A stretch of 49,353 nt of DNA from Peptococcaceae bacterium BRH_c4a. GTDB taxonomy: Bacteria; Bacillota; Desulfotomaculia; Desulfotomaculales; Desulfocucumaceae. The stretch covers positions 1 through 49,353 of the forward strand of contig LADN01000078.1 in assembly GCA_000961585.1 (NCBI GenBank). The letters are read 5' to 3'. Below are positions 25,285-44,691 of this stretch, in pieces. Numbering within the stretch: position 1 is the first letter of the stretch; each line of letters begins with the position of its first letter. The notes under the pieces are model-generated. The model was not told the origin of the DNA. It saw only the letters and a list, made by a program, of their open reading frames with translations, and did not search any database. A program made the position numbers and the translations under genes.

Positions 25285-25737
25285 CTATCCCTTCCTGGCA
25301 GGTCCAAGTTTTTTCAGCAGCTCCGAGAATTCCTTCATATGGTTTGTAAACGGCTCGGCACAGACCGAGCAGATGCCTGACATTCTCACCCTCTGGGGTT
25401 CGTACCCTTTTTGAGTGAGTAGTTCCTGGGCCTCCTGAGCGATATGCGACGTCCTTTCCGCACAATCCGGAAGGTATGCGCATTCTTCCCCGTCGGTGGC
25501 CAGGAAGATCCCGTCAAAACCTTTTTCCACCGCATATAATATCCACTCAGGCTTAATACCGCTTGAACAAGGCATACTGGTTACCACCACCGTAGGAGAG
25601 TAGTGCATGTGAGAGCTGCCGGCCAAATCGATGCCGGGATCTGAAATGTTGTGCGTTGAAAAGACAAGGATCTTAGGGGAAAAATCCCTGTTTTCTCCCG
25701 CCTGCACTGTATTGCCTTCTCTCGTTTGCCCTGCCAT
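25285..25737 (-). CDS. mvhD: MvhD/FlpD-like hydrogenase iron-sulfur subunit
   Basis: A 150-residue protein of the MvhD (FlpD) family (PF02662): KILVFSTHNISDPG, VVTSMPCSSGIKPEWILYAVEKGFDGIFLATDGEECAYL and RMSGICSVCAEPFTNHMKEFSELL. The Cys residues in MPCSSG, EECAY and ICSVC are consistent with a [2Fe-2S] cluster that passes electrons between a dehydrogenase partner and HdrA. No hydrogenase or formate dehydrogenase gene is in the window. Here the NAD(P)H module of the next protein is the obvious electron donor or acceptor. It is one base from the tusA stop. Confidence 0.88.
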   Translation of the reverse strand: MAGQTREGNTVQAGENRDFSPKILVFSTHNISDPGIDLAGSSHMHYSPTVVVTSMPCSSGIKPEWILYAVEKGFDGIFLATDGEECAYLPDCAERTSHIAQEAQELLTQKGYEPQRVRMSGICSVCAEPFTNHMKEFSELLKKLGPARKG

Positions 25738-27386: not shown

Positions 27387-29141
27387 TTAAAAATCGTACT
27401 CCTTGATTTTCCGGTAAAGGGTGGCTATACCAATGCCCAGTACGTCTGCCGCCTGCTTTTTTCCTTCGGCGTTGAAACTAAATTTATCCAGTGTGGATTT
27501 GATATGATCTTTCTCCAAATCCTTTAATGTGCTGAAGGTATGGGTGTTTATTTTCTTTCCCGGCCCCCGCAGCTTAATGGGGAGGCTGTCTTCAAGAATA
27601 TAATTTGTGGTTTCAATGTTGAAAGCATACTCAACGGCATTTTCCAGCTCTCTTACATTTCCGGCCCAGTCATAGGCCAACATGACATCAAGAGCCTGCT
27701 TGGAATATCCTTTGATCGATTTGCTGAATAACTTGTTATATTTGTTCGAAAAGTGATCCAGCAAGGGTAGTATATCCTCTGTCCGCTCTCTTAAAGGGGG
27801 TGCGGACAGTGGGATGACGCTCAGGCGGTAATACAGATCCTCACGGAATTCGCCCTGGGAAATCATGGTTTCCAGCGGTCGGTTGGTGGCGGCGATGATT
27901 CGGGCATCAATGTTCAGGCTGGTGTTGCCGCCCAGCCGCTCAACAACTTTTTCCTGTAATGTGCGAAGAATTTTGGCCTGTAAATGAATGGGCATATCGC
28001 CGATTTCGTCCAGAAAAATGGTTCCGCCCTCGGCCATTTCAAATTTGCCGGGCTTTCCCCGCCTGTTTGCTCCGGTAAAGGCGCCTTCCTCGTATCCAAA
28101 CAATTCACTTTCCAGAAGGGTATCGGGTATGGCGCTGCAGTTGATGGCGATGAAGGGCTTGTCTTTCCGCGGGCTTGAGCTGTGGATTGCCCGGGCGATT
28201 AATTCTTTTCCGGTGCCGCTTTCCCCCCTGATCAGAATGGTGGAGGAGCTGTTTGCGAATTGGAGGATCTTTTTGCGCAAGTCTTCCATTACCTTGCTTT
28301 TCCCGATAAGGGTGTTTATAGTAATATCCATGCGCTGCTCAGTATAATCCAAAACCAGCTGCTTCACTTCTTCGATGGGGCGAAAAGTGGATACGGCGCC
28401 TATTATTCTGTGATGGGACATGATAGGCCTGGCGGTGCTGAGAAATCTTTTTTGTAATTGCGGGTAGTGGATTTCTTTGTTGATATAGCCCTGGCCGGAG
28501 GTTATCACGTCAATCATGGGTGAACCCGGCAATACTTCGCCGATAAACCGGCTGATTATGTCGTCTTTGTTTTGGTTAATCAACGAGGCGGCAGAATCAT
28601 TGATATGGGTGATTCTGCCTGAATTGTCCACAGCCAGTATGCCTTCGTTTACCGAGTTCATAATAATCAGCAATTGCTCTCTGGCCACCCGCAGCTGATT
28701 GATATATTCCTCTTCATTTATCTTGGAAACAATCATTCCGCCCATTTGTTTTATGAAAGTCAACAATTCGGTGGTATGACGAATAAGTATTTTGCGCTGG
28801 GCCTGATCAAAGGCCACCAGGCCGAAGATGCCGATTACCGCTTCATTTACCATGATGGGAGTGCATAATTCGGCACATTCCTGGCAGCAATTTTTATCAG
28901 GGCATGGAGTGCAAAACTCGTGCTCTCTGGGGTTGGCAATCAGCACATCCAGTTTTCTGGCAATAACTTGCCGGTAAACATAATTGTTTTTAATGGGTAG
29001 CCCGATATTATTGGCATATTTACCGGTTCCGGCAATGCGAATGTATTCCAGATTGACTACTTCCACGTCCACGTTAAGAACGGTGGAAATGGCGGTGGCA
29101 ATTTCTTGGACAGGCTCCCTGATATTAAGCAAGTCGATCAT
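27387..29141 (-). CDS. Sigma-54-dependent activator of the purine-type cluster (YgeV-like)
   Basis: A 584-residue enhancer-binding protein. N-terminal sensory domain (about 1-150) with an unusual Cys cluster CTPCPDKNCCQECAELC that could bind a metal or Fe-S cluster. A PAS domain (MNSVNEGILAVDNSGRITHINDSAA) follows. The AAA+ domain has GESGTGKE (Walker A), GAFTGA (sigma-54 contact), GGTIFLDEIGD (Walker B) and ATNRPLE. A Fis-type HTH is at the C-terminus (KKQAADVLGIGIATLYRKIKEYDF). GAGGTGAAG precedes the ATG. It is divergent from ridA, with three matching palindromes and a -24/-12 promoter in the spacer, so it most likely activates the ridA-xdhD operon in response to a purine, selenium or redox signal. 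Confidence 0.92.
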   Translation of the reverse strand: MIDLLNIREPVQEIATAISTVLNVDVEVVNLEYIRIAGTGKYANNIGLPIKNNYVYRQVIARKLDVLIANPREHEFCTPCPDKNCCQECAELCTPIMVNEAVIGIFGLVAFDQAQRKILIRHTTELLTFIKQMGGMIVSKINEEEYINQLRVAREQLLIIMNSVNEGILAVDNSGRITHINDSAASLINQNKDDIISRFIGEVLPGSPMIDVITSGQGYINKEIHYPQLQKRFLSTARPIMSHHRIIGAVSTFRPIEEVKQLVLDYTEQRMDITINTLIGKSKVMEDLRKKILQFANSSSTILIRGESGTGKELIARAIHSSSPRKDKPFIAINCSAIPDTLLESELFGYEEGAFTGANRRGKPGKFEMAEGGTIFLDEIGDMPIHLQAKILRTLQEKVVERLGGNTSLNIDARIIAATNRPLETMISQGEFREDLYYRLSVIPLSAPPLRERTEDILPLLDHFSNKYNKLFSKSIKGYSKQALDVMLAYDWAGNVRELENAVEYAFNIETTNYILEDSLPIKLRGPGKKINTHTFSTLKDLEKDHIKSTLDKFSFNAEGKKQAADVLGIGIATLYRKIKEYDF

Positions 29142-29161
29142 TTCTTCACCTCAAATAATTA

Positions 29162-29251
29162 TTATCATAATGATAATAATTTATCAAGATGATAATTTCT
29201 TTTTTCATGATTTAACGACATTTTTCATTGCTTGTATTATCAAATTGATAA
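29162..29251. promoter_or_regulatory. Three TTATCA-N3-TGATAA upstream activator boxes
   Basis: Exact 15-bp palindromes TTATCAnnnTGATAA occur at 29162-29176 (spacer TAA), 29181-29195 (AGA) and 29237-29251 (AAT). The first is embedded in a perfect 12-1-12 palindrome at 29157-29181. They lie 60-150 bases upstream of the sigma-54 promoter and next to the activator gene, the expected place for enhancer sites. Confidence 0.85.
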
Positions 29252-29312
29252 ATATGAGTTTGCGCTGGCCTGTTAATCGCCTTATAAAGCCTTTCTCCGT
29301 TCAGGGTCATAG

Positions 29313-29330
29313 TTGGCACAACAATTGCTA
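29313..29330 (+). promoter_or_regulatory. Sigma-54 (-24/-12) promoter for ridA-ygeX operon
   Basis: TTGGCACA-acaa-TTGCTA matches the RpoN consensus TGGCAC-N5-TTGC[A/T]. GG (29315-29316) and GC (29327-29328) are separated by exactly 10 bases. The expected transcript start is near 29341, about 38 bases before the ridA ATG. Confidence 0.88.
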
Positions 29331-29378
29331 ATAATTAAGTGCCGGTAGCTTTTTTAATAAATGCTGGAAGGTGACAAC

Positions 29379-29756
29379 ATGCTTAAACAAACAATTAATA
29401 CCGAGTCTGCGCCAAAACCCATCGGCCCGTACTCACAGGCTATTAAATGCAGCGATCTGATATTCGTTTCGGGACAAATACCAGTCGACCCCAACACTGG
29501 AAAATTAGTTGAGGAAATTGAGGCTCAGGCAAGGCAATGCCTTGATAACATATCGGCAATACTGACCGCAGCCGGTTCCGACCTGAGAAAAGTAATAAAA
29601 ACCACTATCTTTTTGAAGGATTTGAACGATTTCAAAACTGTCAATGAAATTTATGGAAGTTATTTTACCAATACTTACCCGGCCAGGAGTACTATAGAGG
29701 CAGCCCGGTTACCCCTTGACGCAAAAGTTGAGATCGAGGCTATTGCGGCATTATAG
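29379..29756 (+). CDS. ridA: RidA-family enamine/imine deaminase
   Basis: A 125-residue RidA (YjgF/YER057c/UK114) protein: PIGPYSQAIKCSDLIFVSGQIP at the N-terminus, and NTYPARSTIEAARLPLDAKVEIEAIA with the Arg that binds the substrate carboxylate and the terminal Glu. It hydrolyses reactive enamines and imines such as 2-aminoacrylate released by PLP lyases. This fits its place immediately before ygeX, whose product makes 2-aminoacrylate twice per diaminopropionate. The ATG at 29379 follows GGAAGGTGAC; the frame extends to 29361. It is the first gene after the sigma-54 promoter. Confidence 0.93.
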   Translation: MLKQTINTESAPKPIGPYSQAIKCSDLIFVSGQIPVDPNTGKLVEEIEAQARQCLDNISAILTAAGSDLRKVIKTTIFLKDLNDFKTVNEIYGSYFTNTYPARSTIEAARLPLDAKVEIEAIAAL

Positions 29757-29774: not shown

Positions 29775-31001
29775 ATGGATAAACAGATTAAGTGGATAGC
29801 TAATGGGAATGCCCGGAATAACGGGGAAAAGGCATCCTTAGATTTTCTAAGTGAGAATGAGACAAAAAAAGTGATGGATTTTCACCAAAGCTTTCCCCAG
29901 TATCAGGCAACGCCCCTTAAAAGCCTGTCCAATCTGGCCGGCTGCGCGGGTGTGTCGGGAATTTATGTGAAGGACGAATCCTACCGCTTTGGCCTGAATG
30001 CTTTTAAGGTTTTGGGAGGGACTTACGCCATTGGCAGGTACCTGGCGGGACGCCTCAACCGGGATATTTCCGATCTTTCTTTTGAAAAGCTGAAAACAAA
30101 AGAGATAAGAGAAAAGCTGGGGGATATTACATTTACTTCGGCCACAGATGGGAACCACGGCAGGGGAGTGGCCTGGGCCGCCCAGCAGCTTGGCCAGAGG
30201 GCAGTCATTTATATGCCCAGGGGCTCATCTCTGGTAAGATTGGAAAACATTAAGGCAACCGGGGCCGAGGGGTACATTACAGACCTGAATTATGACGATG
30301 CGGTAAGGCTGGCAGCCGGTAACGCCCAAAAACACGGCTGGGTGATTGTGCAGGATACAGCCTGGGAAAGTTATATGGATATCCCCACCTGGATAATGCA
30401 GGGCTATGCCACCATGGCTGCCGAGGCCCTGGAGCAGCTAAACCGGCTGGGAGGAAAGCCGACCCATGTATTTGTCCAGGCCGGAGTGGGCGCCCTTGCC
30501 GGCGCTATGCAGGGATTCTTTGCCTCGGCCTTTGCTGAGTCCCGCCCTATTACCGTGGTGGTTGAGCCCGATAAGGCCGACTGTATTTATAAATCCGCCC
30601 TGGCCGGAGACGGAAGGCCAAGAAATGTTACCGGCGACATGGATACCATTATGGCCGGCCTGGCCTGCGGGGAGCCCAATTCTATCGGGTGGGAAATTTT
30701 ATGGGACTATTGCGATGTGTTTATATCCTGTCCTGATTACGTGGCTGCAAAAGGAATGAGGATTTTGGGCAACCCGCTGGGAGCTGACCCGAGGGTTGTT
30801 TCAGGAGAATCAGGGGCGGTAACCACAGGTGTTTTAATTGATATTCTGCAAAATGAAAATTTAAGTGAAATCAGGGATTTGCTTAAGCTTGATAAGGACT
30901 CAAGAATACTGGTCTTTAGCACCGAAGGGGACACCGACCCTGATAGTTACAGGGATATTGTCTGGGATGGCAAGTACCCCAGCTGCGGCTGTAAGGGCTG
31001 A
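29775..31001 (+). CDS. ygeX: Diaminopropionate ammonia-lyase
   Basis: A 408-residue fold-type II PLP enzyme converting 2,3-diaminopropionate to pyruvate and two ammonia. ESYRFGLNAFKVLGGTYA contains the PLP Lys (N-A-F-K). TSATDGNHGRGVAW is the Asn/Gly phosphate-binding and re-face region, VQAGVGALAGAMQGF the glycine loop, and FSTEGDTD the C-terminal pyridine-nitrogen region. This matches E. coli YgeX closely in motif order. AAGGAG lies upstream of the ATG, 18 bases after ridA. It is part of the cluster recently linked to anaerobic uric acid degradation. Confidence 0.93.
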   Translation: MDKQIKWIANGNARNNGEKASLDFLSENETKKVMDFHQSFPQYQATPLKSLSNLAGCAGVSGIYVKDESYRFGLNAFKVLGGTYAIGRYLAGRLNRDISDLSFEKLKTKEIREKLGDITFTSATDGNHGRGVAWAAQQLGQRAVIYMPRGSSLVRLENIKATGAEGYITDLNYDDAVRLAAGNAQKHGWVIVQDTAWESYMDIPTWIMQGYATMAAEALEQLNRLGGKPTHVFVQAGVGALAGAMQGFFASAFAESRPITVVVEPDKADCIYKSALAGDGRPRNVTGDMDTIMAGLACGEPNSIGWEILWDYCDVFISCPDYVAAKGMRILGNPLGADPRVVSGESGAVTTGVLIDILQNENLSEIRDLLKLDKDSRILVFSTEGDTDPDSYRDIVWDGKYPSCGCKG

Positions 31002-31073: not shown

Positions 31074-32402
31074 ATGCTGCTTGTTGGCAACGGGCGGGTT
31101 ATTACCCGTGATGGCGGCCAGCCCTATCTGGCTGAGGGCTGTGTGGTTATTGAAGACAATATAATCGTGGAAGTGGGCTCCACTTCGGATCTGTCAGATA
31201 AATATCCCGGCGCTGCCTTTATTGACGCCAGGGGCAGGGTAATAATGCCGGGCATGATTAATACCCATATGCACCTGTACAGCACCTTCGCCCGAGGCAT
31301 GGTCTTAAAGGGCGCCCCGCCGCATAATTTCCAGGAAATTCTTGCAGGGTTATGGTGGAGGCTGGACAAAGTTCTGACATTGGATGACATCTACTATAGC
31401 GCCATGGTGCCTCTGATTGATTGTATCAAGAGCGGCACCACCACTATCTTTGATCATCATGCCAGCCCCGGAGCGGTGCGGGAAAGTCTTTTTGTTCTGG
31501 CTTTGGCATCCCGCGACGCCGGTGTCCGCAGCTGCCTGTGCTATGAGGTGTCCGACCGGGACGGCGCGGCGGTAATGGATCAGGGAATAATGGAAAATGT
31601 GGAATTTATCCGGCTTGCCAACAGCGGCAAAGATGATCTGGTGAGGGGCATGTTCGGCCTGCATGCGTCTCTGACCTTGAGTGATGAGACCCTGGCCCGG
31701 TGCGGCGAGGCCAATGCCGGCTTGGGAACGGGCTTCCACATCCATGTGGCCGAGGGGGCCGCCGATCTTGCCGATTCCCTGGCCAAGTCGGGCAAGCGGG
31801 TGGTGGAGCGGCTGGCAGGCTTTGGAATACTTGGCCCCAAATCAATAGCCGCCCACTGTGTGCATGTGAATGACCGGGAAATCGGTATCCTCAGTGAAAC
31901 GGACACCAATGTGGTGCACAATCCGGAGTCCAACATGGGCAATGCGGTGGGCTGCGCCCCCGTGCTTGAGATGCTGCAAAAAGGCGTCAGGGTGGGCCTG
32001 GGGACTGACGGGTATACCAGTGATATGTTTGAGTCCTTTAAGGTGGCCAATATTTTACACAAGCATCACCATGCCAACCCCAGTGTGGCCTGGGCGGAAG
32101 CGCCGGCAATGCTTTTCAGGCACAACGCCCCCATTGCGGCCTCATATTTCCCCCGCCCCCTGGGAAGGCTGGCGCCGGGCTGTTTTGCCGATGTGATTAT
32201 TGTCGATTACGACCCGCCGACGCCGTTTAATGAAGGCAACGCCGACGGCCATATTTTGTTTGGCATGTCCGGCAGGGCGGTGGCAACAACCATAATCAAC
32301 GGCCGGGTGGTTATGGAGGAAAGGCGTCTGACCGGTATTGACGAAGCGGCAATTTGCGCCAAGGCCCGTGAATTGAGCGGTAAATTGTGGGAAAGATTTT
32401 AG
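31074..32402 (+). CDS. ssnA: SsnA-type amidohydrolase
   Basis: A 442-residue metal-dependent amidohydrolase related to chlorohydrolases and guanine deaminase. MINTHMHLYSTFARGM is the first HxH metal pair, GFHIHVAEGAADL and IAAHCVHVNDREI supply further His ligands, and RVGLGTDGYTSDMFES supplies the metal-binding Asp. This family accompanies selenium-dependent molybdenum hydroxylases and is part of the urate/purine cluster, where a ring-opening or deaminating step on a purine intermediate is the likely job. The ATG at 31074 has AAGGAG upstream; the frame opens at 31053. It follows ygeX by about 70 bases holding a short repeat. Confidence 0.9.
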   Translation: MLLVGNGRVITRDGGQPYLAEGCVVIEDNIIVEVGSTSDLSDKYPGAAFIDARGRVIMPGMINTHMHLYSTFARGMVLKGAPPHNFQEILAGLWWRLDKVLTLDDIYYSAMVPLIDCIKSGTTTIFDHHASPGAVRESLFVLALASRDAGVRSCLCYEVSDRDGAAVMDQGIMENVEFIRLANSGKDDLVRGMFGLHASLTLSDETLARCGEANAGLGTGFHIHVAEGAADLADSLAKSGKRVVERLAGFGILGPKSIAAHCVHVNDREIGILSETDTNVVHNPESNMGNAVGCAPVLEMLQKGVRVGLGTDGYTSDMFESFKVANILHKHHHANPSVAWAEAPAMLFRHNAPIAASYFPRPLGRLAPGCFADVIIVDYDPPTPFNEGNADGHILFGMSGRAVATTIINGRVVMEERRLTGIDEAAICAKARELSGKLWERF

Positions 32403-32690: not shown

Positions 32691-32709
32691 TTAATTGGGA
32701 GGTGGATTT

Positions 32710-34065
32710 ATGGCAGGGGGAAAAGTTGCTACTGTCGATAAGGTGAATCAAATGTTGCCAATTGGGCAATTAATACCACTTGGACTTCAACACGTTTTAG
32801 CCATGTATGCAGGTGCGGTTGCAGTACCTCTTATCGTAGGCGGAGCTGTGGGGTTAACCCCACAACAACTGGCCTTCTTAGTTGCCGCAGATTTATTTAC
32901 CTGTGGTATAGCCACATTACTTCAAGCTATTGGAATAGGACAATTCGCAGGGATAAGGCTGCCTGCAATCCTTGGCTGCACATTTGCTGCTGTAGGTCCA
33001 CTGATTGTTATCGGTAAAGAGTCAGGAATGGCCACTGCCTATGGCGCTATTATTACGGCAGGTATTGTAGTTGCTCTGCTTGCTCCGCTTTATGGTAAAA
33101 TTTTAAGGTTTTTTCCCAGTGTAGTTACAGGTTCCGTCGTTACGATTATCGGACTTTCTTTGATATCCGTCGGTGTTCGTAATGCAGGAGGCGGCTTTGG
33201 GCCAACTTTCGGAGACCCTAAAAACCTGCTTTTAGCGGGATTTACAATGCTTGTTATAATCATAATGAATAAATTTTTCAAAGGATTCTTACAGGCGATT
33301 TCCGTCTTAATCGGATTAATAGTTGGTACGATTGTTGCCGCATTTGTGGGTATGGTTGATTTTACAGTGGTGGTTAATGCTAAGTGGGTAAGTCTCGTAC
33401 ATCCTTTTGCTTTTGGAGTTCCCAAGTTTGAAATTGGTGCGATTCTAATGATGACTATCGTTATGCTGATAGTTATGATTGAATCCACAGGTACTTTCCT
33501 GGGAATTGGTAAAGTCTGCGATAAAAGTCTTACCGAAAAAGATATTGTCAGAGGGATGAGAGCTGAAGGAATAGCTACTGTCATGGGGGGAATATTCAAT
33601 TCATTCCCATATACAACTTATAATCAGAATTTAGGACTTCTTGCCTTGAGTAGAGTTACCAGCCGTTTTGTGGTTATCGTTTCTGGAATTATTCTGGTTT
33701 TGCTAGGACTAATTCCTAAGTTTGCGGCATTGGCTACGATTATTCCTGCGCCTGTCTTTGGCGGGGCTACAATTATCATGTTCGCCATGGTAGCAGTTGC
33801 TGGTCTCAAAATGCTGCACAATGTGGATTTCAACAAAAACTCAAATATGTTAGTTGTGGCATGTTCAATCGGTGTTGGACTTGGCGTGACAGTTGTGCCG
33901 GGTTTATTTGCCAAGACGCCTCAAATAATAAATACCGTATTTGGACACAGCGGAATCGTTTCCGGAGCTCTTGTTGCAGTTCTTTTAAATGCTTTCTTAA
34001 ACTTTGGTGATAAAGAAAGTCAGGAAAGCTCAAATCCTTTTGAAGAAGAACATTTTGTTGGTTAA
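32710..34065 (+). CDS. NCS2-family xanthine/urate permease
   Basis: A 451-residue transporter of the nucleobase:cation symporter-2 family with about 12-14 hydrophobic segments. Diagnostic motifs are GLQHVLAMYAGAVAVPLIVG near the N-terminus, FAGIRLPAILGCTFAAVGP (substrate helix), IESTGTFLGIGKV and FNSFPYTTYNQNLGLLALSRV. The last is the NxGxxxxT-like signature region, here NQNLGLLALS. It resembles PucJ/UacT/XanQ-like purine importers. The ATG at 32710 has GGGAGGTGG upstream. It is markedly more AT-rich than the genes either side, suggesting separate acquisition. It presumably feeds urate or xanthine to this cluster. Confidence 0.92.
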   Translation: MAGGKVATVDKVNQMLPIGQLIPLGLQHVLAMYAGAVAVPLIVGGAVGLTPQQLAFLVAADLFTCGIATLLQAIGIGQFAGIRLPAILGCTFAAVGPLIVIGKESGMATAYGAIITAGIVVALLAPLYGKILRFFPSVVTGSVVTIIGLSLISVGVRNAGGGFGPTFGDPKNLLLAGFTMLVIIIMNKFFKGFLQAISVLIGLIVGTIVAAFVGMVDFTVVVNAKWVSLVHPFAFGVPKFEIGAILMMTIVMLIVMIESTGTFLGIGKVCDKSLTEKDIVRGMRAEGIATVMGGIFNSFPYTTYNQNLGLLALSRVTSRFVVIVSGIILVLLGLIPKFAALATIIPAPVFGGATIIMFAMVAVAGLKMLHNVDFNKNSNMLVVACSIGVGLGVTVVPGLFAKTPQIINTVFGHSGIVSGALVAVLLNAFLNFGDKESQESSNPFEEEHFVG

Positions 34066-34142: not shown

Positions 34143-35237
34143 GTGGCTAAACTGAGTGTAAACATCTGTGGTATTACCTTTCCCAATCCGGTTATGCCGG
34201 CAGCCGGCCCCACCTCCAAGGACGGGGCTATGTGCCAGGCGGCTGCCCGGGGAGGGGCCGGCGGTATTGTTACCAAAACAATATCGGTTAAGCCGGCCGA
34301 GGTTCCAAGGCCGTGCATGGCGGAAATTAAAGGCGGTTTCTTAAATACCGAGCTCTGGTCGGAACTGCCCAAGGAGCAGTGGCTGGAAAATGAATACAGA
34401 ATGGTCAAAGAAACTGGCCTGCCGGTAATAGTCAGCCTGGGTTACACCGCCGATCAAATCAGTGAGCTGGCGCAGCTGGTGAAACCTTACGCCGACGCTC
34501 TGGAGCTGTCCACCCACTATGTGGGAAATGACATTTCTCCCATTGTCGACGCCTTAAAGGCGGCCAAGTCGGCGGTTGACGTTCCGGTCTTTATGAAAAT
34601 GAGCCCTCATCCCAATATTCAGGATATAGCCAAAGCGGTGGAAGATGCGGGGGCGGACGGGCTGGTGATGATTAATTCCTTTGGCCCCTGCATGGGAATT
34701 GATATTGAAACCGGGCTGCCTCTGATGGGCAGCAGGGAAGGCTACGGCTGGCTTTCCGGCGCTGCCGTCAGGTCACTGGCCGTCCGTTGCGTATATGATG
34801 CGGCCGGGGTTGTAAGGATACCCATATTTGGAGTGGGCGGCGTCACCAGCGGCCGGGACGTGGCTGAATTGTTCATGGCCGGGGCCTCGGCTGTACAGGT
34901 TTGTACCGCAGGCATTTTAAAAGGGCCCGGCGTATATGGCAAAATTGTCAAAGAGCTGGAAGAGTTTTTAGACAGCCACGGCTATGCCGATGTTTCCGAA
35001 ATTAAAGGGCTGGCTCACCGGAAAATGGCCCGGAGGGCTTTTCGAACAACGGCCGTTGTGCCGGTGGTTGACAATGATCGCTGCAATCTTTGCGGTCTTT
35101 GCGAAATAAGCTGCTCTTATGATGCCATTTCCCGCTCCGGCCAGCTGGTTATCGATGCCGGGAAGTGTTTCGGCTGCGGCCTCTGTGTCACCCGCTGCCA
35201 GAGAAAGGCCTTGACGCTGGATGGCGGGGAGAGTTAA
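34143..35237 (+). CDS. preA: Dihydropyrimidine dehydrogenase PreA-like protein
   Basis: A 364-residue FMN TIM-barrel oxidoreductase of the dihydroorotate/dihydropyrimidine dehydrogenase family with a C-terminal ferredoxin domain. FPNPVMPAAGP, GIVTKTISV, MKMSPHPNIQDIAKAVEDAGADGLVMIN and FGVGGVTSGRDVAELFMAGASAVQV are FMN-barrel motifs. CNLCGLCEISCSYDA and CFGCGLCVTRCQRKA bind two [4Fe-4S] clusters. I do not see the large YgfK protein that usually holds the oxidoreductase role in urate clusters, so this may take its place in reducing a purine or pyrimidine ring. GTG start at 34143 with AAGGAG upstream. Confidence 0.88.
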   Translation: MAKLSVNICGITFPNPVMPAAGPTSKDGAMCQAAARGGAGGIVTKTISVKPAEVPRPCMAEIKGGFLNTELWSELPKEQWLENEYRMVKETGLPVIVSLGYTADQISELAQLVKPYADALELSTHYVGNDISPIVDALKAAKSAVDVPVFMKMSPHPNIQDIAKAVEDAGADGLVMINSFGPCMGIDIETGLPLMGSREGYGWLSGAAVRSLAVRCVYDAAGVVRIPIFGVGGVTSGRDVAELFMAGASAVQVCTAGILKGPGVYGKIVKELEEFLDSHGYADVSEIKGLAHRKMARRAFRTTAVVPVVDNDRCNLCGLCEISCSYDAISRSGQLVIDAGKCFGCGLCVTRCQRKALTLDGGES

Positions 35238-35297: not shown

Positions 35298-36542
35298 TTG
35301 AGCGAAAATTTTGGGAAGGCATTGGAATTAGCGCAAAAGTACCAGCCGGAAATGAGCCGGTTTTTGCGGGATATGATTGCCATTCCCAGTGAAAGCTGTC
35401 AGGAAGAAAAGGTTGTTTTAAGAATCAAAGAAGAAATGGAGGAGGTGGGCTTTGATAAGGTTACCATTGATCCCATGGGAAACATACTGGGATACATTGG
35501 TAGCGGAAAACACCTGATTGCCATGGATGCTCATATCGACACCGTGGGTGTGGGTAATCCCGGGAACTGGCAGTATGATCCTTATAAAGGCTATGAAGAC
35601 GATGAAATAATAATCGGCCGCGGCGCCAGCGATCAGGAAGGCGGCATGGCCTCCATGGTATACTCCGGAAAAATAATCAAAGAGCTGGGGCTGGAAGACG
35701 ACTACACCCTGGTTGTGGTCGGCTCGGTACAGGAGGAAGACTGTGACGGGCTGTGCTGGCAGTATATTATCAACGAGGGCAAACTGAGGCCGGAATTCGT
35801 GGTTATCACCGAGCCCACCGACGGCAGGATTCACCGGGGCCAGCGCGGCAGGATGGAAATAAAAGTGGCCGCCAGAGGCGTCAGCTGCCATGGATCCGCT
35901 CCCGAGCGGGGCGATAACGCCATCTACAAAATGGGGCCGGTTTTGGCCGAGCTTAGGGCATTGCATGAAAACCTCAGGGTCCATGATTTTCTGGGTAAAG
36001 GCAGCTTGGCGGTATCGGAGATTTTTCATACCTCCCCATCCCGCTGCGCGGTGGCCGACAGCTGCTGGATTTCCATCGACAGGCGGCTCACCGCCGGTGA
36101 AGACGCCGATTATGCCATGCAGCAGATAAAATATCTCCCGTCGGTTAAGGCGGCCGGCGCTGAAGTGTCCATGTATACCTATGAGAGACCTTCCTATACT
36201 AATCTGGTGTATCCTACTGAATCTTATTTTCCCACCTGGCTGATCGAGGAAGATCATCCTGTCTGCTCGACGCTGGTGGATGCGTATAAAGGCCTTTTTA
36301 AGCAGGACCCGGTTATAGACAAGTGGACGTTCTCCACAAACGGAGTATCCATCATGGGAAGATACGGCATTCCCTGCATCGGCTTTGGCCCCGGCCATGA
36401 AGATCAGGCCCATGCTCCCAATGAAAGAACCTGGAAAAAAGAGCTGGTTTACGCGGCAGCCATGTATGCCATGATTCCCGGAATATATGTAAAAAAATAT
36501 GCCGGCAAGATGCCTGGGGCCACCCAAAACCTGGTAAAGTAA
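35298..36542 (+). CDS. ygeY: YgeY-type M20 family hydrolase
   Basis: A 414-residue metallohydrolase of the M20 dizinc peptidase/deacylase family, YgeY subgroup. Metal ligands are visible in [11 protein letters not shown] (His, Asp), [10 protein letters not shown] (bridging Asp), VQEEDCDG (catalytic Glu-Glu) and [14 protein letters not shown] (last His). The lid domain starts near CHGSAPERG. In urate clusters YgeY acts between ring-opened intermediates and diaminopropionate. TTG start at 35298 with AAAGGAG upstream, after a short TAATAGG-type repeat. Confidence 0.92.
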
Positions 36543-36597: not shown

Positions 36598-37581
36598 ATG
36601 CAATCCATTTTCCGCGGAAGGCACTTTATCGACCTGGAGGATTTCAACAAAGAAGAAGTGGAAACAATGTTGGAAGTGTCCTTTGGTCTGAAGAAAAAAT
36701 TTGCCATGGGAGTGCCTACCCCGTACCTGCAGTACCAGACCATGTTTCTGATGTTCTTTGAGCAGTCCACCAGAACCAGAAACTCCATGGAAGCCGGTAT
36801 TGCCCAACTGGGCGGGCACGCAAACTACCTGGATTCCAGCGGTATGCAAATCGCCCACGGCGAAAGCGCCAAGGATACAGCCATCATTCTCTCCCGCTTC
36901 GGTCATGCCATTGCCTGCAGGTACTGCAACTGGGGCATCGGCAATAAGTACCTGAACGAAATGGCTGAATGGTCCACCGCTCCCATCATGAATCTGCAGT
37001 GTGACCTTTATCACCCCTTCCAGGCTTTGGCCGATTTGATGACCATGAAGGAGAAAATAGGTGACTTGAAGCGGGTTAAGGTTTCCATCATCTGGGCCTA
37101 TGCCGAAAGCCACAAGAAGCCTATCTCGGTCCCTGTATCGCAGCTTCTGCTCTTCCCTCGCTATGGCATGGACGTGGTTCTTGCCCACCCCAAAGGCTAT
37201 GATCTGCCCGACTGGGTGATTGAGAAAGCCAGGGCCAGCGCCGCCAGGTACGGTGGCACGGTTGCCATTACCAACAACGAGGCCGAGGCGTATGAAAACG
37301 CCCATATCGTTATTCCCAAAAACTGGGGGAGCTGGACGACTGACCAGGGCACGGCCGTTATCGATGACCGCCTGGTTGCCAACAAGAGCTGGATATGCAC
37401 CGAAGAAAAAATGGCCACAGCCGATAAAGATGTAATGTACATGCACGCCCTGCCCGCTGACCGGGGCAACGAGGTGGTGGATTCGGTCATTGACGGCCCG
37501 CACTCCATCGTGTACGATGAGGCTGAAAACCGCCTGCATACTGCCAAAGCGGTAATGACACTGCTGATGGGCGGCAGATAA
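36598..37581 (+). CDS. ygeW: Knotted carbamoyltransferase YgeW
   Basis: A 327-residue aspartate/ornithine-carbamoyltransferase-fold enzyme. FFEQSTRTRNSMEAG is the carbamoyl-phosphate loop (STRTR), DLYHPFQALADLMT is the HPxQ-type motif, and HALPADRGNEVVDSVIDG is the C-terminal substrate region of the YgeW group. It probably releases carbamoyl phosphate from a ureido compound (phosphorolysis) for the adjacent carbamate kinase. AAGGAGG precedes the ATG. It is somewhat shorter than E. coli YgeW as I recall it (near 400 residues), missing mainly N-terminal length. Confidence 0.9.
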   Translation: MQSIFRGRHFIDLEDFNKEEVETMLEVSFGLKKKFAMGVPTPYLQYQTMFLMFFEQSTRTRNSMEAGIAQLGGHANYLDSSGMQIAHGESAKDTAIILSRFGHAIACRYCNWGIGNKYLNEMAEWSTAPIMNLQCDLYHPFQALADLMTMKEKIGDLKRVKVSIIWAYAESHKKPISVPVSQLLLFPRYGMDVVLAHPKGYDLPDWVIEKARASAARYGGTVAITNNEAEAYENAHIVIPKNWGSWTTDQGTAVIDDRLVANKSWICTEEKMATADKDVMYMHALPADRGNEVVDSVIDGPHSIVYDEAENRLHTAKAVMTLLMGGR

Positions 37582-37583
37582 AT

Positions 37584-38534
37584 ATGAGCAAGCTCGCTGT
37601 TGTTGCCATTGGTGGAAACTCCCTTATTCGTGACAGCGCGCACCAAACCGTTGAGGATCAAAATGATGCCATTTGTGAAACAATCAGGCATGTTGCCGGG
37701 ATTATTGAGCAGGGCTATGAAGTCATTATCACCCATGGCAACGGCCCGCAGGTGGGCTTTATTCTGAGGAGGTCGGAAATAGCCGCTGAATTGGCGGGTA
37801 TGCACCACGTGCCGCTGGTCATCTGCGTCGCTGACACCCAGGGCGCTATAGGCTACCAGATACAGCAGGCTATGGACAATGAGTTCAGAATACGCGGGCT
37901 GAAAAAATCAGCTGTCACCGTGGTAACGCAGGTGGTGGTGGCGGTGGATGACCCGGCCTTTGAAAAGCCCGGCAAGCCCATCGGATCGTTTTATGATAAG
38001 GAGAGGGCCGAGGCTTTTCAAAAAGAAAATCCGGGCTGGGTGATGGTCAACGATGCCGGAAGGGGTTACCGGAGGGTTGTTCCTTCCCCTCTCCCGCAGG
38101 AAATTGTGGAAAAAGAAGTAATCAGGAAACTGGTTGGTAACGGCTATTGTGTTGTGGCCGTGGGCGGCGGGGGCATTCCGGTGGCCAGGCAGCCCGACGG
38201 CACTTTGATGGGTGTGGATGCGGTAATTGACAAGGATTTTGCTTCCAGCCTGCTGGCCTCTGAGGTAGGTGCCGATATGCTGATCATCTCAACCAGCGTA
38301 CCCAGAGTATGCCTTAACTACGGCAGGCCGGATGAAAAAGCGCTGGATAAAGTAACCGTGGCTGAATTAAAACAGTATGTGTCAGAAAACCATTTTGCTC
38401 CCGGCAGTATGCTTCCCAAAATACAGGCTGTGATAAACTTCCTGGAAAATGGAGGCAAAAGGGCCATTATACTTAATCCGGATTCTCTGGAAGAAGCAAT
38501 TGCCGGAAAAACGGGAACACATATTTATCCATAA
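37584..38534 (+). CDS. arcC: Carbamate kinase
   Basis: A 316-residue amino-acid-kinase-fold enzyme turning carbamoyl phosphate and ADP into ATP, CO2 and ammonia. Motifs: VVAIGGNSL at the N-terminus, THGNGPQVGFILRRSE, VAVGGGGIPVAR and GVDAVIDKDFASSLLASEV. It ends with LEEAIAGKTGTHIYP as is usual. It starts two bases after the ygeW stop, so the two are coupled. This is the ATP-yielding step of the cluster and equivalent to E. coli YqeA. Confidence 0.94.
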   Translation: MSKLAVVAIGGNSLIRDSAHQTVEDQNDAICETIRHVAGIIEQGYEVIITHGNGPQVGFILRRSEIAAELAGMHHVPLVICVADTQGAIGYQIQQAMDNEFRIRGLKKSAVTVVTQVVVAVDDPAFEKPGKPIGSFYDKERAEAFQKENPGWVMVNDAGRGYRRVVPSPLPQEIVEKEVIRKLVGNGYCVVAVGGGGIPVARQPDGTLMGVDAVIDKDFASSLLASEVGADMLIISTSVPRVCLNYGRPDEKALDKVTVAELKQYVSENHFAPGSMLPKIQAVINFLENGGKRAIILNPDSLEEAIAGKTGTHIYP

Positions 38535-38645: not shown

Positions 38646-41195
38646 TTGTTCGCAATAGACCTTAACGGTGGCATTTACACTGCAAAAGAGGATATGAACC
38701 TGTTAGATTTCCTGCGGGACGAATTACAGGTCACCTCACTTAAAAACGGCTGTGGTGAGGGGGCCTGCGGCGCCTGCATGCTGCTGGTGGACGGCAAGGC
38801 CATGCGGGCATGCCTCTTGACTGTGGCTAAGATGAGCGGTAAAAAGCTTATGACGGTGGAAGGCCTGCCGGACAGGGAAAAGGAAATTTATGTCCGGGCT
38901 TTTGCCGAGGCGGGGGCTGTGCAGTGCGGCTTTTGCATCCCCGGCATGATCATCAGCGCCAAAGCACTGCTGGACAAAAACCCCCATCCTGCTGCCCGGG
39001 AAATTAAGGAATCCATACGCGGCAACATATGCCGCTGTACGGGATATGTAAAAATAGAACAGGCCATCAGCATGGCGGCCAGACTGCTGCGCGGGGAATC
39101 GCTGCCTGATTCGCCGGCACATCCGGGGATAGGAGCCAGCCTGCCGCGGGTTGACGCCCGGGAAAAAGTGCTGGGAACAGGCCAGTATGTAGATGACATG
39201 CATGTCAAAGATATGCTTTACGGAGCTGTGCTGCGTACTAAATACCCCCGGGCTCTGGTGAAGGGCATTGATGTGTCGGCTGCCCGGGCCTGTCCGGGAG
39301 TGGAAGCGGTGCTGACGGCTGAAGATGTGCCGGGTGAGCGTTTTTGGGGCTTTATTTTTAAGGATTGGCCGGTTTTGGTGGCCACCGGTGAAGAAACACG
39401 GTATATAGGCGATGCTATTGCGCTGGTGGCGGCCCGCTCCAAAAAAATCGCCCGGGAAGCGCTGGCATTGATAAAAGTGGAGTATGAAGAGCTGGAGCCG
39501 GTAACCACCCCCGCCTTTGCGCTTCACGAGGACGCTCCAAAGATTCATCCCAAAGGAAATCTTTTAAGCACCACCAGCATCAAAAGAGGCGATGCCCAAA
39601 AAGATCTGGCCGGGTCGGCCTATGTGGTAACCAACCGCTATGCCACCCCGCCCACCGAGCATGCCTTTATGGAGCCGGAAAGCGCGCTGGCCATCCCCCA
39701 GGGGAACGGGGGAATTACCGTCTGCTCAGGAAGCCAGAGTGTATACGAAGACCAGCACGGGATAATGGCAATACTGGGCTTGCCGGCCGAAAAGGTGCGG
39801 GTTGTCAGCAAATTGATCGGCGGGGGCTTCGGCGGTAAAGAAGATTTATGCGTGCAGCACCATGCCGCGCTGCTGGCGGTGAAAACCAAAAAGCCTGTAA
39901 AGATTACCTTTACCAGGCGGGAAAGCATACTTGTTCATCCCAAGCGCCACGCCATGGATCTGGAATTAAGCACCGGCTGCGATGCCGAAGGAAAAATCAC
40001 GGCGGTGGTGGCTAAAGTTGTGGCTGACACGGGGGCTTATTCATCGCTGGGGCCGCCTGTTTTACAGAGGGCCTGCACTCATATCGGCGGGCCTTACCAT
40101 GTTCCCAGTGTGGATATAACCGGATATTGCGTATATACCAACAACCCCCCGGCAGGGGCGTTTCGGGGCTTCGGAGTTCCCCAGGCCGCCTTTGCCTGTG
40201 AAACCAATCTGGATTTATTGGCTCACAAGGTTGGTATTTCACCGTGGGAGATTCGCTACCGCAATGCACTGGAGCCGGGCATGGCTAATGCCACCGGGCA
40301 GATCGCCGATGAGGGCACGGCCATCAAGGAGACGCTGCTGGCCGTGCGCCAGGCCTACGAATCCCACCGGTGCGCCGGAATTGCCTGCGCCTTGAAGAAC
40401 ACCGGCATAGGAGTGGGATTGCCCGATATATCCCGGGTCAAAATAAAAGTGGCGGGCGGCAGGGCGCTTGTTTTAACCAGTGCGGCCTGCATCGGCCAGG
40501 GGATGGCCACCATTGCCGTTCAAATGGTTTGTGAAACCACAGGACTGCCTGCGGAATTAGTTGAAGTGGCGGCGCCGGATACCGCCCTGACCCCTGACGC
40601 CGGCACAACCACCGCCTCCAGGCAGACTCTTTTTACCGGCGAGGCTACCCGCCAGGCGGCAATCAAACTGAAGCAGGCGCTGCAGCAGGCGACGCTGGCC
40701 CAACTTGAGGGCGGCGAGTTTTACGGAGAGTATTCTGGTAACACCGACCCGATGAGATCCGATAAACCCAATCCGGTAAGCCATGTGGCCTATAGCTATG
40801 CCACTCATGTTGTTTTGCTGGATGAAAAGGGCAAGGTGCAGAAAGTATTCGCAGCCCATGACGTTGGCCGGGCTATCAATCCAAAGGCCATCGAGGGGCA
40901 GGTCGAAGGGGCCATTGCCATGGGGCTGGGCTATGCCCTGAGGGAAGACTTCCCTCTGCAAAAAGGGGTGCCGACGGTAAAATACAGCACCCTGGGACTG
41001 TTCCGGTCCACCGATATGCCGGAGATAGAGGTGATACTGGTGGAAAAAAATCCATCGCCGCTGGCATACGGCGCCAAAGGAGTGGGTGAGATTGCCGCCA
41101 TTCCAGTTACCCCGGCGGTGGCGTCGGCGTACTACAGGTATGACGGAAGGATAAGGCTGAGGCTTCCTTTGCCGGAAACCGCATATAGAAAGTAA
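38646..41195 (+). CDS. xdhD: Xanthine dehydrogenase-type molybdenum hydroxylase, fused Fe-S and Mo subunits
   Basis: An 849-residue fusion. Residues 1-150 carry two [2Fe-2S] clusters: the ferredoxin-type GCGEGACGACMLLVDG, and QCGFCIPGMI with NICRCTGYVKI. Residues 165-849 are the molybdopterin subunit, with GGGFGGKED, the PPAGAFRGFGVPQ arginine/substrate loop, and GQGMATIAVQM. KGVGEIAAIP near the end bears the catalytic Glu. There is no FAD domain, so electrons leave by another partner. This is the XdhD/selenium-dependent xanthine dehydrogenase type, hydroxylating a purine. TTG start at 38646 after GTGAGGTGAGG. It is the last gene of the cluster. Confidence 0.92.
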   Translation: MFAIDLNGGIYTAKEDMNLLDFLRDELQVTSLKNGCGEGACGACMLLVDGKAMRACLLTVAKMSGKKLMTVEGLPDREKEIYVRAFAEAGAVQCGFCIPGMIISAKALLDKNPHPAAREIKESIRGNICRCTGYVKIEQAISMAARLLRGESLPDSPAHPGIGASLPRVDAREKVLGTGQYVDDMHVKDMLYGAVLRTKYPRALVKGIDVSAARACPGVEAVLTAEDVPGERFWGFIFKDWPVLVATGEETRYIGDAIALVAARSKKIAREALALIKVEYEELEPVTTPAFALHEDAPKIHPKGNLLSTTSIKRGDAQKDLAGSAYVVTNRYATPPTEHAFMEPESALAIPQGNGGITVCSGSQSVYEDQHGIMAILGLPAEKVRVVSKLIGGGFGGKEDLCVQHHAALLAVKTKKPVKITFTRRESILVHPKRHAMDLELSTGCDAEGKITAVVAKVVADTGAYSSLGPPVLQRACTHIGGPYHVPSVDITGYCVYTNNPPAGAFRGFGVPQAAFACETNLDLLAHKVGISPWEIRYRNALEPGMANATGQIADEGTAIKETLLAVRQAYESHRCAGIACALKNTGIGVGLPDISRVKIKVAGGRALVLTSAACIGQGMATIAVQMVCETTGLPAELVEVAAPDTALTPDAGTTTASRQTLFTGEATRQAAIKLKQALQQATLAQLEGGEFYGEYSGNTDPMRSDKPNPVSHVAYSYATHVVLLDEKGKVQKVFAAHDVGRAINPKAIEGQVEGAIAMGLGYALREDFPLQKGVPTVKYSTLGLFRSTDMPEIEVILVEKNPSPLAYGAKGVGEIAAIPVTPAVASAYYRYDGRIRLRLPLPETAYRK

Positions 41196-41823: not shown

Positions 41824-42279
41824 TTATTTGTTTGGCAATAATGTAGGACTGTCCTGCGATGGTGATTCGTTCTGCTCCTGTTCTTCCCGCGTCATTTCTG
41901 GTGCGAGACGCAGAACAAAATCTCGGACCGCTTTTGCGCCGCTCAGTGCCTGCCGCATATCCCGTTCCTCCAGGATGGGTTCCATTGGGTATCTTGGCTG
42001 AATGCCGAAAGCAGTCAGGTCGGAGCACTGGTCGGCTATCTTTTTAAAGGTATCGGACAGATCCGAACAGAGTTTGCGCAATTCATTTAAATCATGTATC
42101 TTGGGCGGATTAATACCGTGCAAAACAAGATAACCCTTAAGGTATTTCTCGGCGGATTGCTGGCAGTGATAGCAGATAATTTCCACAGGGACGGGACGCA
42201 TGTTGAGTAAATATTCGGCGCTGCTTAAATCCATTTCCGCAAGCCTTTGCCATTCCTGCGCGCGGGTGTGCTTATCCAT
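41824..42279 (-). CDS. HEPN-domain protein (MNT/HEPN module)
   Basis: A 151-residue HEPN protein (RAQEWQRLAEMDLSSAEYLL, VEIICYHCQQSAEKYLKGYL, PPKIHDLNELRKLC). It overlaps the preceding nucleotidyltransferase gene by 8 bases, the classic arrangement of an MNT-HEPN toxin-antitoxin pair. A clear Rx4-6H ribonuclease motif is not obvious to me, so it may belong to a HEPN subgroup without it. The acidic C-terminal tail (EMTREEQEQNESPSQD) looks disordered. Confidence 0.85.
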   Translation of the reverse strand: MDKHTRAQEWQRLAEMDLSSAEYLLNMRPVPVEIICYHCQQSAEKYLKGYLVLHGINPPKIHDLNELRKLCSDLSDTFKKIADQCSDLTAFGIQPRYPMEPILEERDMRQALSGAKAVRDFVLRLAPEMTREEQEQNESPSQDSPTLLPNK

Positions 42280-42595
42280 ACAGCACCATGCCCTCTTGGG
42301 CTATTTGCCGCTCAATGGTGGGAGTGGATTTGCGTTGGTTAAACTTATTTTTTTTGCTGACTATCACATCCACAGGCATTGTTTTTTTATCCCGGATTGC
42401 TCTGTGGATTAACCTCATTGCGTCAATTTCCCGAAGATCTGTATTCTCTGACATCACCACATAAATATCCAGGTCTGAATCAGCATGCGGCGTACCGTTT
42501 GCGTAGGAGCCGAACAGGAATATCTGCTCCACGGGAATGGTGTTCACGATGATATCTTTAAGGATGTTCAACTCATCCCGGATTCGTTTTTCCAT
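42272..42595 (-). CDS. Minimal nucleotidyltransferase (MNT) antitoxin
   Basis: A 107-residue polymerase-beta-like nucleotidyltransferase. FGSYANGTPHADSDLDIYV shows the GS-X10-DxD metal-binding motif. Such MNT proteins neutralise their HEPN partners, in some systems by adding nucleotides to a tyrosine on the toxin. It is the first gene of the pair and translationally overlaps the HEPN gene. Confidence 0.9.
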   Translation of the reverse strand: MEKRIRDELNILKDIIVNTIPVEQIFLFGSYANGTPHADSDLDIYVVMSENTDLREIDAMRLIHRAIRDKKTMPVDVIVSKKNKFNQRKSTPTIERQIAQEGMVLYG

Positions 42596-43033
42596 ATCGG
42601 CACCTCCATCTATTTTCAGTATATCCCGGCAGTTTCAGTATTACCATCTATCGGATATAACTATTATATCATAATTTTTGGAAAAAAGTGAGGAATCCAC
42701 CCGCACAAAAATCCTCTAAAATAATCCACCGTTCTCTGTGGAAGTCCTCGAACTTTTCGGTGGTCACATTATTAGGGTAAAGTTTTATGAAGAAGGCAAT
42801 ACAATATTTTACAAAATCACTGTTAATAGAGCGTTAGGGGTCAGCCCTTGACATTGGACATATTATCAAATGTCAAGGGCTGACTCCATAGGTCCGACCC
42901 CACAGGTCCCCTCGACCAGTTTGTTTTACAAACATATTTAAAACGGTTATACTTGTAAATAAAGGATGACAGATAACTGTTTTCATAACTGTTTTCATAT
43001 AAACCCTTACTAAAACTGCTGATAGATCGTGAT
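42596..43033. other. 438-bp non-coding spacer with hairpin repeat
   Basis: It holds the divergent start regions of the MNT and XRE genes and a palindromic repeat at 42837-42887: GGTCAGCCCTTGACAtt facing aaTGTCAAGGGCTGAC around a short loop. An ACTGTTTTCATA direct repeat lies at about 42977-43000 just before the XRE frame. I see no gene in it. Confidence 0.7.
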
Positions 43034-43210
43034 ATGAAATTAACGGACCTCGGGCTGTCATCGGCCACTAGGGCGAAGATTAACAAAAACGAATATGTGG
43101 CCATGGATGTTCTGAATCGGATTTGCAACCAACTGGACTGCCAGCCTGGGGATCTGTTTGAATACATCCCCGACAAAGAGGAGGAATCCACTCATGCAAC
43201 GCAGATTTAA
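43034..43210 (+). CDS. Small XRE/Cro-type regulator (possibly 5'-degenerate)
   Basis: From the ATG at 43034 the frame gives 58 residues: KLTDLGLSSATRAKINKNEY, then VAMDVLNRICNQLDCQPGDLFEYIPD. This is the second half of an HTH_26-type Cro/C1 domain. Codons upstream (SYKPLLKLLIDRD) clearly belong to the same protein back to 42989, but only a CTG is available as start before a stop at 42988. The helix-turn region is also a few residues shorter than usual. Its stop lies 17 bases inside hicB. It is likely the operon's autoregulator, perhaps damaged. Confidence 0.7.
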   Translation: MKLTDLGLSSATRAKINKNEYVAMDVLNRICNQLDCQPGDLFEYIPDKEEESTHATQI

Positions 43211-43421
43211 GGTAATCCTGGATTGGAATGAAGACGGGGGAGGATATACTGTTACTGTCCCGGCTTTACCCGGTTGTGTAACCCAGGGCGATACCATCGA
43301 AGAATCGTTAGAAAGGGCACAAGATGCCATAGAAGGCTTTATTGAGGCGTTAAAAATTATTGGTGAACCAATCCCTGTGAGTGATGTTGAAATTGCCGAA
43401 GTACAGGTAAATGTTTCATGA
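43194..43421 (+). CDS. hicB: HicB-type antitoxin
   Basis: A 75-residue HicB-like protein (RRFKVILDWNEDGGGYTVTVPALPGCVTQGDTIEESLERAQDAIEGFIEAL), the partial RNase-H-like fold of HicB antitoxins. No separate C-terminal DNA-binding domain is present, consistent with the XRE gene just upstream supplying that role. The ATG at 43194 has AGAGGAGG upstream. Its stop overlaps the hicA start (ATGA). Confidence 0.92.
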   Translation: MQRRFKVILDWNEDGGGYTVTVPALPGCVTQGDTIEESLERAQDAIEGFIEALKIIGEPIPVSDVEIAEVQVNVS

Positions 43422-43648
43422 CCCGCCTGCCCAGGGTAACTGCCAAAGAAGTCTTCAACGGCTTAAAAAGAAACGGTTTTGAAGTTATCAGAACCAGTGG
43501 TAGTCATCATTTTTTGCATCGCCCGGGAAGCGGGATAGTTACTATATCAATTCACCCTGGTGAAATTGTTAAGCCAAAAACGCTGAAGTCTATTTTAAAG
43601 CAAACAGGCCTTACAGTTGAAGAGTTGATTGACTTGCTACGAAATTAG
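43418..43648 (+). CDS. hicA: HicA-type mRNA interferase toxin
   Basis: A 76-residue HicA toxin with a dsRBD-like fold: LPRVTAKEVFNGLKRNGFEVIRTSGSHHFLHRPG. The His in GSHH is the catalytic residue; it ends VKPKTLKSILKQTGLTVEELIDLL as is typical. It cleaves mRNA when free of HicB. It overlaps hicB by 4 bases. The gene appears intact. Confidence 0.92.
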   Translation: MTRLPRVTAKEVFNGLKRNGFEVIRTSGSHHFLHRPGSGIVTISIHPGEIVKPKTLKSILKQTGLTVEELIDLLRN

Positions 43649-43649
43649 T

Positions 43650-43673
43650 GGGGTTAGCCCTTGACATTTGACA
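43650..43673 (+). repeat. GGGGTTAGCCCTTGACATttgaca repeat
   Basis: A third member of the GGGGTCAGCCC family, between hicA and the transposase remnant. It is near-identical to the words at 41274-41297 and 42837-42860. Confidence 0.75.
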
Positions 43674-43769
43674 GAGACGTTTAGCGCAGTTATTTCGATC
43701 CCGTATCCTCTATTATTTCCTCCCTTACCTTGAAAAATAGCTTATTTTCTTTGGTGGCTCACGAATAGC

Positions 43770-44363
43770 TTAACTCCCTACAGGTCTCCTCTGATGGCAA
43801 ATTATACCAGACAAGGCAAGAACCGTCCCCGCTTGCCTCCCGGTTGTAAGAAGTGCCCTGTCCGGATAAGCATGACCGTCTTGATACACAAGGCATTGAT
43901 GAATTTTTACACCTGCTTTTGTTTTGCGGTAATCGGCCCATCTGTAACTGTTAAGACAAAGGGTAATGGTGCTGGCATCAATTATATGGACACGGTCGGC
44001 ATTAGGGGTGGCACTTAAACTATTGGTGGTTTTTTGCATTGCAATTTTTGCCACTTGGGTAAACACGGCTCCCCAGAAGTCACTACTCATTTCTTTAAAA
44101 CGCCTGGATAACTGTGATGCACTGATTGAATTAAGCTTTAGATTGTCTTGAAGGTCAATATCATTTTTTACCCTGTCGGCCAGTGCCCTAATGGATTCAA
44201 TTTGGACAACCTGAGCAATAAACATGATGTAGAGCAATTTAATTGTAAATAGTTTTTTGATGTACCTGTCTGCACTGGTGTCTTTGATTAGGGAACAAAA
44301 TTTTTCATAGGGAAATTGATTTAGTACTTCAATAAATGTGGATTTAGTGGTATCCTTATCCAT
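43770..44363 (-). pseudogene. Truncated IS4-type transposase
   Basis: Residues 1-150 match the N-terminal region of IS4-family DDE transposases with a DUF4372 start (FIEVLNQFPYEKFCSLI, RALADRV, LDLQ-like DIDLQDNLKLNSISASQLSRRF). HIIDASTITLCLNSYRWADY supplies the first catalytic Asp. After HAYPDRALLTT the protein loses similarity and ends at 197 residues, about half the usual length. The downstream DDE parts are missing, and a short continuation is visible only in another frame. It is non-functional. Confidence 0.8.
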
Positions 44364-44691
44364 GCGAGCTCTCCTTATTTTAGAGACTATGGACAGGATT
44401 ACCTGCTATAACTCTATTATAAGGAGTTTTTTAGTGAAATACAATGATATTTATTGAAAATGAACTAATTTGGATAAATTTAAGCAAATTTAAGGGTTGA
44501 AATTTTTATTTTTTGTTTGTGCAATGCTACTGATCTACGACACAAAAATATGGATTTTGTAGCTAGTTTTAAATATTCATTAACCTAAAAATATGCTTTT
44601 TTCAGTGGTCTCAATCGTCCCCTGACCCATATGGCGATTCAGGGCAGATTTATTAGCTTACACCATAAAGGCGTTCAAAGAGCCGACAACC
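44364..44691. other. AT-rich spacer, no gene seen
   Basis: About 330 bases of AT-rich sequence between the transposase start and the 4-fold-beta-flower-like gene. I see no open frame of note, tRNA or clear terminator. It probably holds the IS end and promoter remnants. Confidence 0.5.

Follow-up and report, generated by a model that had tools for sequence, protein, structure and literature searches.

The window, that is, the whole 49,353-nt stretch of the Peptococcaceae bacterium BRH_c4a genome analysed here, carries a divergent arrangement in which a putative transcriptional activator gene and a nine-gene operon beginning with ridA flank a short control region (Table 1). A first-pass annotation, made from the letters of the window, had placed three palindromic boxes and a promoter between an activator and ridA, and our gene calls agree with that layout. 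The activator contains an AAA+ sigma-54 interaction domain (PF00158, 241 bits) with YEEGAFTGANR in the translation, and a C-terminal Fis-type helix-turn-helix (HTH; PF02954, residues 538-582); with a GAFTGA-bearing AAA+ domain and a Fis-type HTH it is, as judged from its domains, a sigma-54 enhancer-binding protein (bEBP). Its recognition helix, LGIGIATLYRK, is found in this protein alone among 27 relatives in its own genome (E<=1e-40). The best NCBIfam match was NF041552 (PrdR), and membership was rejected at 426 bits, far below the 795-bit cut-off.

Table 1. Coordinates of the control region, the activator gene and the target operon in the window
Feature	Position	Strand	Remarks
sigma-54 enhancer-binding protein	27387..29141	-	PAS, AAA+ with GAFTGA, Fis-type HTH, helix LGIGIATLYRK
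activator box 1	29162..29176	.	TTATCATAATGATAA; exact TTATCA-N3-TGATAA
activator box 2	29181..29195	.	TTATCAAGATGATAA; exact TTATCA-N3-TGATAA; 19 bp from box 1
activator box 3	29237..29251	.	TTATCAAATTGATAA; exact TTATCA-N3-TGATAA; promoter-proximal
sigma-54 -24/-12 promoter	29313..29329	+	TTGGCACAACAATTGCT; GG 29315-29316, GC 29327-29328
ridA family, first gene of the operon	29379..29756	+	TIGR00004
dpaL/ygeX, diaminopropionate ammonia-lyase	29775..31001	+	TIGR03528
ssnA, aminohydrolase	31074..32402	+	TIGR03314
pbuX, xanthine permease	32695..34065	+	TIGR03173
uacX-like, dihydroorotate-dehydrogenase fold + 4Fe-4S	34143..35237	+	below TIGR01037 cut-off
ygeY hydrolase	35298..36542	+	TIGR03526
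carbamoyltransferase (OTC/YgeW-like)	36598..37581	+	below OTC and YgeW cut-offs
arcC, carbamate kinase	37584..38534	+	TIGR00746
xdhD, selenium-dependent xanthine dehydrogenase	38646..41195	+	TIGR03311

The gene content of the operon corresponds to the reductive uric acid pathway set out in PMC12507026, and by analogy with that work the uacX-like product is assigned to the UacX family. The hydantoinase of the pathway was not found in the ridA-xdhD operon; a strong homologue is encoded on another contig (C76:6167-7513), where the sole box (up to one mismatch) is located inside an activator reading frame 3.5 kb away. The minus strand just beyond the activator gene (19276-25737) encodes an electron-transfer module, made up of two HdrA-like FAD/4Fe-4S proteins, an MvhD/FlpD subunit and a CCG-domain protein, that might serve the energy metabolism of this anaerobe. 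Downstream of the operon, positions 41824-47227 encode a HEPN protein, a transposase fragment, a beta-flower protein and an AAA_13 ATPase, possibly a small variable region related to defence.

The three exact TTATCA-N3-TGATAA palindromes of the first-pass annotation are present as proposed, and its consensus -24/-12 promoter (GG-N10-GC) was likewise recovered: the element has the GG-N10-GC spacing and the TGGCAC/TTGCW halves, it is the sole full-consensus TGGCAC-N5-TTGCW match in the whole window, and rpoN is found in the genome. The transcript start predicted from this element lies near 29340, which places the box centres approximately 171, 152 and 96 bp ahead of it; these distances come close to the range of 100-250 bp that the text of PMC6615313 gives for upstream activator sequences (UAS) before sigma-54 promoters. 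Exact boxes arose by chance in 1 of 20,000 simulated 220-bp regions (Markov model of the AT-rich local sequence), and exact copies number only five in the entire 3.49-Mb genome, three of them in the control region; the two further copies, located by the genome-wide search that the annotation had suggested, were discarded as sites, each being single and within a reading frame. The three boxes and the promoter are real and non-random.

The same arrangement recurs beside the closest relatives of the activator, those of Desulfotomaculum copahuensis (73% identity) and Ca. Formimonas warabiya (74%), where triple boxes and a sigma-54 promoter adjoin the activator gene in the same order of pair, single box and promoter. 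D. copahuensis has a second box triple before dpaL-ygeY-otc-arcC, and its operon adjoining the activator encodes deaminases of the deoxyadenosine/guanine and adenine types. The relatives also bear on whether autoregulation of the activator is the main role of the boxes and activation of the operon a secondary one. Such a role would suit boxes 1 and 2, which occupy the stretch 21-54 bp ahead of the activator start and coincide in part with a weak sigma-70-like match on the minus strand; matches of that kind, however, occur at chance level (two found, 1.4 expected), and in many relatives the boxes are downstream of the activator gene, in the interval that separates it from the target operon, and therefore autoregulation cannot be their general role. 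We regard it as quite unlikely to be the main one here.

Many orthologous clusters do carry the boxes, so that the outcome which the first-pass annotation had named as refuting its reading, absence of the boxes there, did not occur. Paired boxes, defined as at least two boxes with up to one mismatch each and 15-130 bp apart, were found at 21 of 80 named ssnA loci, while 59 half-site-permuted palindromes used as controls gave none each at the same 80 loci. The boxed clusters belong to Clostridium, Anaerosalibacter, Anaeromonas, Pelosinus, Desulfosporosinus and Propionigenium. Their boxes stand ahead of dpaL, pbuX, ygeY, uacX or xdh genes and are followed, in nearly all cases, by a sigma-54 promoter at a distance of 40-250 bp; at some of the Desulfosporosinus and Pelosinus loci no matching activator was paired with the boxes in this analysis. 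No paired boxes were detected within 10 kb at the other 59 ssnA loci, which would therefore be served by other regulators or by distant sites.

From 87 sites the motif reads TTATCA-W3-TGATAA; its central triplet is about 93-96% A/T, and constraint is weakest at the outermost base. Pairs are spaced 17-21 bp apart, mostly 19 bp (17/23 pairs; 10/16 when sites found by the 19-bp pattern are set aside), and a third box is found to one side of the pair or the other, at a distance of 43-102 bp. The half-sites TGATAA/TTATCA are common to these boxes and to the Fur consensus (TGATAAT-N-ATTATCA and variants), with which box 1 agrees at 15 of 19 positions, so that Fur-type iron sites had to be considered. 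The Fur score over 82 boxes (11.8/19), however, is no better than that of simulated boxes with random flanks (12.1), the 7-1-7 Fur motif with up to one mismatch was absent from all 80 ssnA loci, the box centre can be any three A/T bases, and the boxes track activator helices. TGATAAT-N-ATTATCA itself is not what the boxes contain, the identification with Fur boxes was rejected, and we consider it highly improbable.

In a blind scan, 398 genomes of the phylum were searched for two boxes at 19-bp spacing (34 bp in all, up to two mismatches); eight of them, the window genome included, gave matches, and the reversed control gave none. All eight matches adjoin an activator with the recognition helix L[GD]IG[IL]AT[LV]YRK. 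Some neighbours in this set are not purine genes: they encode serine hydroxymethyltransferase (SHMT) and PLP enzymes, a serine dehydratase alpha-type protein, or an aminotransferase. The loci L195, L196 and L198 have the same helix and boxes beside genes for SHMT/PLP-dependent enzymes, a serine dehydratase alpha-type protein, or an unassigned protein with an aminotransferase. Non-purine operons lie behind some boxes, and the box therefore appears to track the helix and not the pathway. The first-pass proposal of an operator for regulators of anaerobic purine/urate clusters thus holds for many ssnA clusters and for the E. coli YgeV-regulon promoters described below, but is too narrow in that the boxes also precede non-purine operons.

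These data also weigh on the possibility that the boxes are operators of a different regulator, a repressor or another activator, and that the neighbouring activator uses other sites. TTATCA-N3-TGATAA is short and AT-rich, binding of the activator to it is deduced from sequence, and most ssnA loci (59/80) are without paired boxes, all of which leaves some room for such a regulator. A separate shared regulator would not explain, on the other hand, why 8/8 blind-scan matches in varied gene contexts stand beside one helix class, and paired boxes were found in only 8/398 genomes; we hold this explanation to be improbable, if slightly less so than autoregulation as the main role.

When activators were sorted by recognition helix, at least two boxes within 700 bp were found for 14 of 18 with L[GD]IG[IL]AT[LV]YRK and for none of 51 with other helices (Fisher p = 2e-11, a value inflated by shared ancestry); leaving out the loci that had been found through their boxes gave 10/12 against 0/51 (hypergeometric, approximately 5e-10). 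The four helix-bearing activators lacking two boxes in range fall just short: the triple boxes of L194 and L137 lie slightly beyond the range, and L197 and L143 have one exact box close by and others that are weaker or more distant. Activators with the helices LGIG-R-AT, LGIS-I-AT and LGIS-L-AT are without boxes. The association of helix and box is in part, on these sequences, one of shared ancestry, although the helix label needs about four changes on a tree of the AAA+/HTH region. A pair of LGISLAT activators is nested in the box clade, yet has no boxes, and a replacement palindrome was looked for beside the LGISLATLYRK activators and not found. It is likely, in our estimation, that all sigma-54 activators with the helix L[GD]IG[ILM]AT[LV]YRK, among them E. 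coli YgeV, have TTATCA-W3-TGATAA as a common operator, conserved in Bacillota, Fusobacteriota and Pseudomonadota, and that the two helix residues preceding AT determine this operator, given that G-R, S-R, S-I and S-L helices go without the box; here again the box would follow the helix and not the pathway.

For the window itself, the boxes are very probably upstream activator sites of YgeV/DioR-type enhancer-binding proteins, in this case of the neighbouring activator. Boxes, promoter, genes and an arrangement conserved across phyla are established at the level of sequence, and the conserved boxes support the initial reading of the region as a sigma-54 control region with activator boxes as its operator. 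An activator dimer would bind each 15-bp box through the Fis-type helix-turn-helix and the recognition helix LGIGIATLYRK, and the 19-bp pair together with the third box would nucleate the AAA+ oligomer. The inducer is probably a purine-pathway compound. The induced oligomer may then loop to the sigma-54 RNA polymerase at 29313-29329 and open the promoter, which would lead to transcription of ridA-dpaL-ssnA-pbuX-uacX-ygeY-otc-arcC-xdhD, a predicted operon for reductive uric acid/purine breakdown. Some autoregulation of the activator is conceivable in addition, because boxes 1 and 2 overlie its own upstream region.

Part of this regulon has been predicted before. According to the text of Nie et al. 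2019 (PMC6615313), a DioR group was predicted in Clostridioides, Clostridium and Desulfotomaculum, with targets that include dpaL, tdcF (RidA family), pbuX and ygeW-ygfK-ssnA-ygeY, with sigma-54 promoters, and with a UAS motif reported as distinct from TGT-N10-ACA; the function of DioR was listed there as unknown in 2019. The same text gives TGT-N10-12-ACA for the sites of PrdR, the proline reductase activator, which differ from the TTATCA-N3-TGATAA boxes of the window. In C. difficile, the sigma-54 promoters of dpaL1, dpaL2, tdcF and pbuX have been assigned to DioR1/DioR2, with DioR2 as the regulator of dpaL2 and tdcF; DioR2 (CD3186) is numbered between dpaL2 (CD3184) and tdcF (CD3187), and dpaL2 drops to 0.3-fold in a sigL mutant (PMC7438776). 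The DioR target set described in PMC6615313 is nearly that of the window operon, with dpaL, ridA/tdcF, pbuX, ssnA and ygeY under a sigma-54 promoter, and the window box is a candidate for the DioR UAS motif. The window activator is 41-43% identical to ssnA-linked Clostridium activators, yet the tree sets them apart. For Clostridiales, a DioR motif and a regulon of nearly the same genes had thus been predicted in 2019 (PMC6615313, from its text). The earlier remark that the binding site is not well described therefore has to be qualified by the DioR motif derived in that report; for E. coli YgeV, no description of a binding site was found in the most relevant of the openly accessible papers that name it. 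Nor did the literature searched contain the extension to E. coli or the helix-box rule.

E. coli YgeV (= IsrR), a regulator associated with uric acid genes, has the same recognition helix as the window activator (LGIGIATLYRKIKKY against LGIGIATLYRKIKEY), and is divergent from an operon with dpaL/ygeX and ygeY, as the window activator is. The two proteins differ in that overall identity is 33% and in their tree positions: in the AAA+/HTH tree, whose root is arbitrary, a branch with support 100/99 separates the window activator from a clade of E. coli YgeV and Clostridium activators. "YgeV-like", the earlier label of the activator, is therefore apt for its predicted mode of action and its recognition helix but not for its placement, outside the clade of E. 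coli YgeV. A 35-kb stretch of E. coli was scanned with a matrix built only from non-E. coli sites. The best intergenic matches comprised an exact TTATCATAATGATAA before ygfK-ssnA, the very word of box 1, which also occurs in Formimonas, and imperfect boxes elsewhere: ATATCAATATGAGAA occurs twice, ahead of ygeW and in the ygfT-uacT interval, and TTATCACATTGATTT lies ahead of xdhA. By chance, 0.18 boxes with up to two mismatches are expected in the 19-kb ygfK-uacT region. The boxed promoters are those of genes of the YgeV iModulon as listed in PMC12132413, and genomic SELEX has reported RpoN binding at ygeV/ygeW (PMC8743547). Unlike the exact triple of the window, most of the sites in E. coli are single or imperfect, and the -12 elements at the boxed promoters are partly off consensus. 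The window activator and YgeV have the same recognition helix and the same predicted operator.

The anaerobic degradation of uric acid by gut bacteria is relevant to gout and hyperuricaemia, and the enzymes involved have recently been worked out. The present analysis provides a defined 15-bp candidate operator that can be tested in E. coli K-12; it also connects YgeV with the DioR regulon of clostridia and offers a helix rule that predicts which activators use the box.

A YgeV relative 72% identical to the E. coli protein is encoded on the Salmonella enterica plasmid CP053580.1 (L206), where the exact word of box 1 lies between ygeW and ygeV and ATATCAGAATGATAA lies before ygfK; both align with the E. 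coli ygeW and ygfK sites, and the -24/-12 regions are conserved as well. This conjugative plasmid carries ygeW-dpaL-ygeY-hydA-arcC and ygfK with the boxes and the YgeV relative, and is possibly the bearer of a mobile uric acid degradation cluster. Finally, the N-terminal sensor region of the window activator contains a Cys-rich stretch at residues ~76-95 (FCTPCPDKNCCQECAELCTP), at the matching place of which E. coli YgeV has LCEGCDSKENCREK; the stretch might bind a metal or an Fe-S cluster and act in redox sensing.
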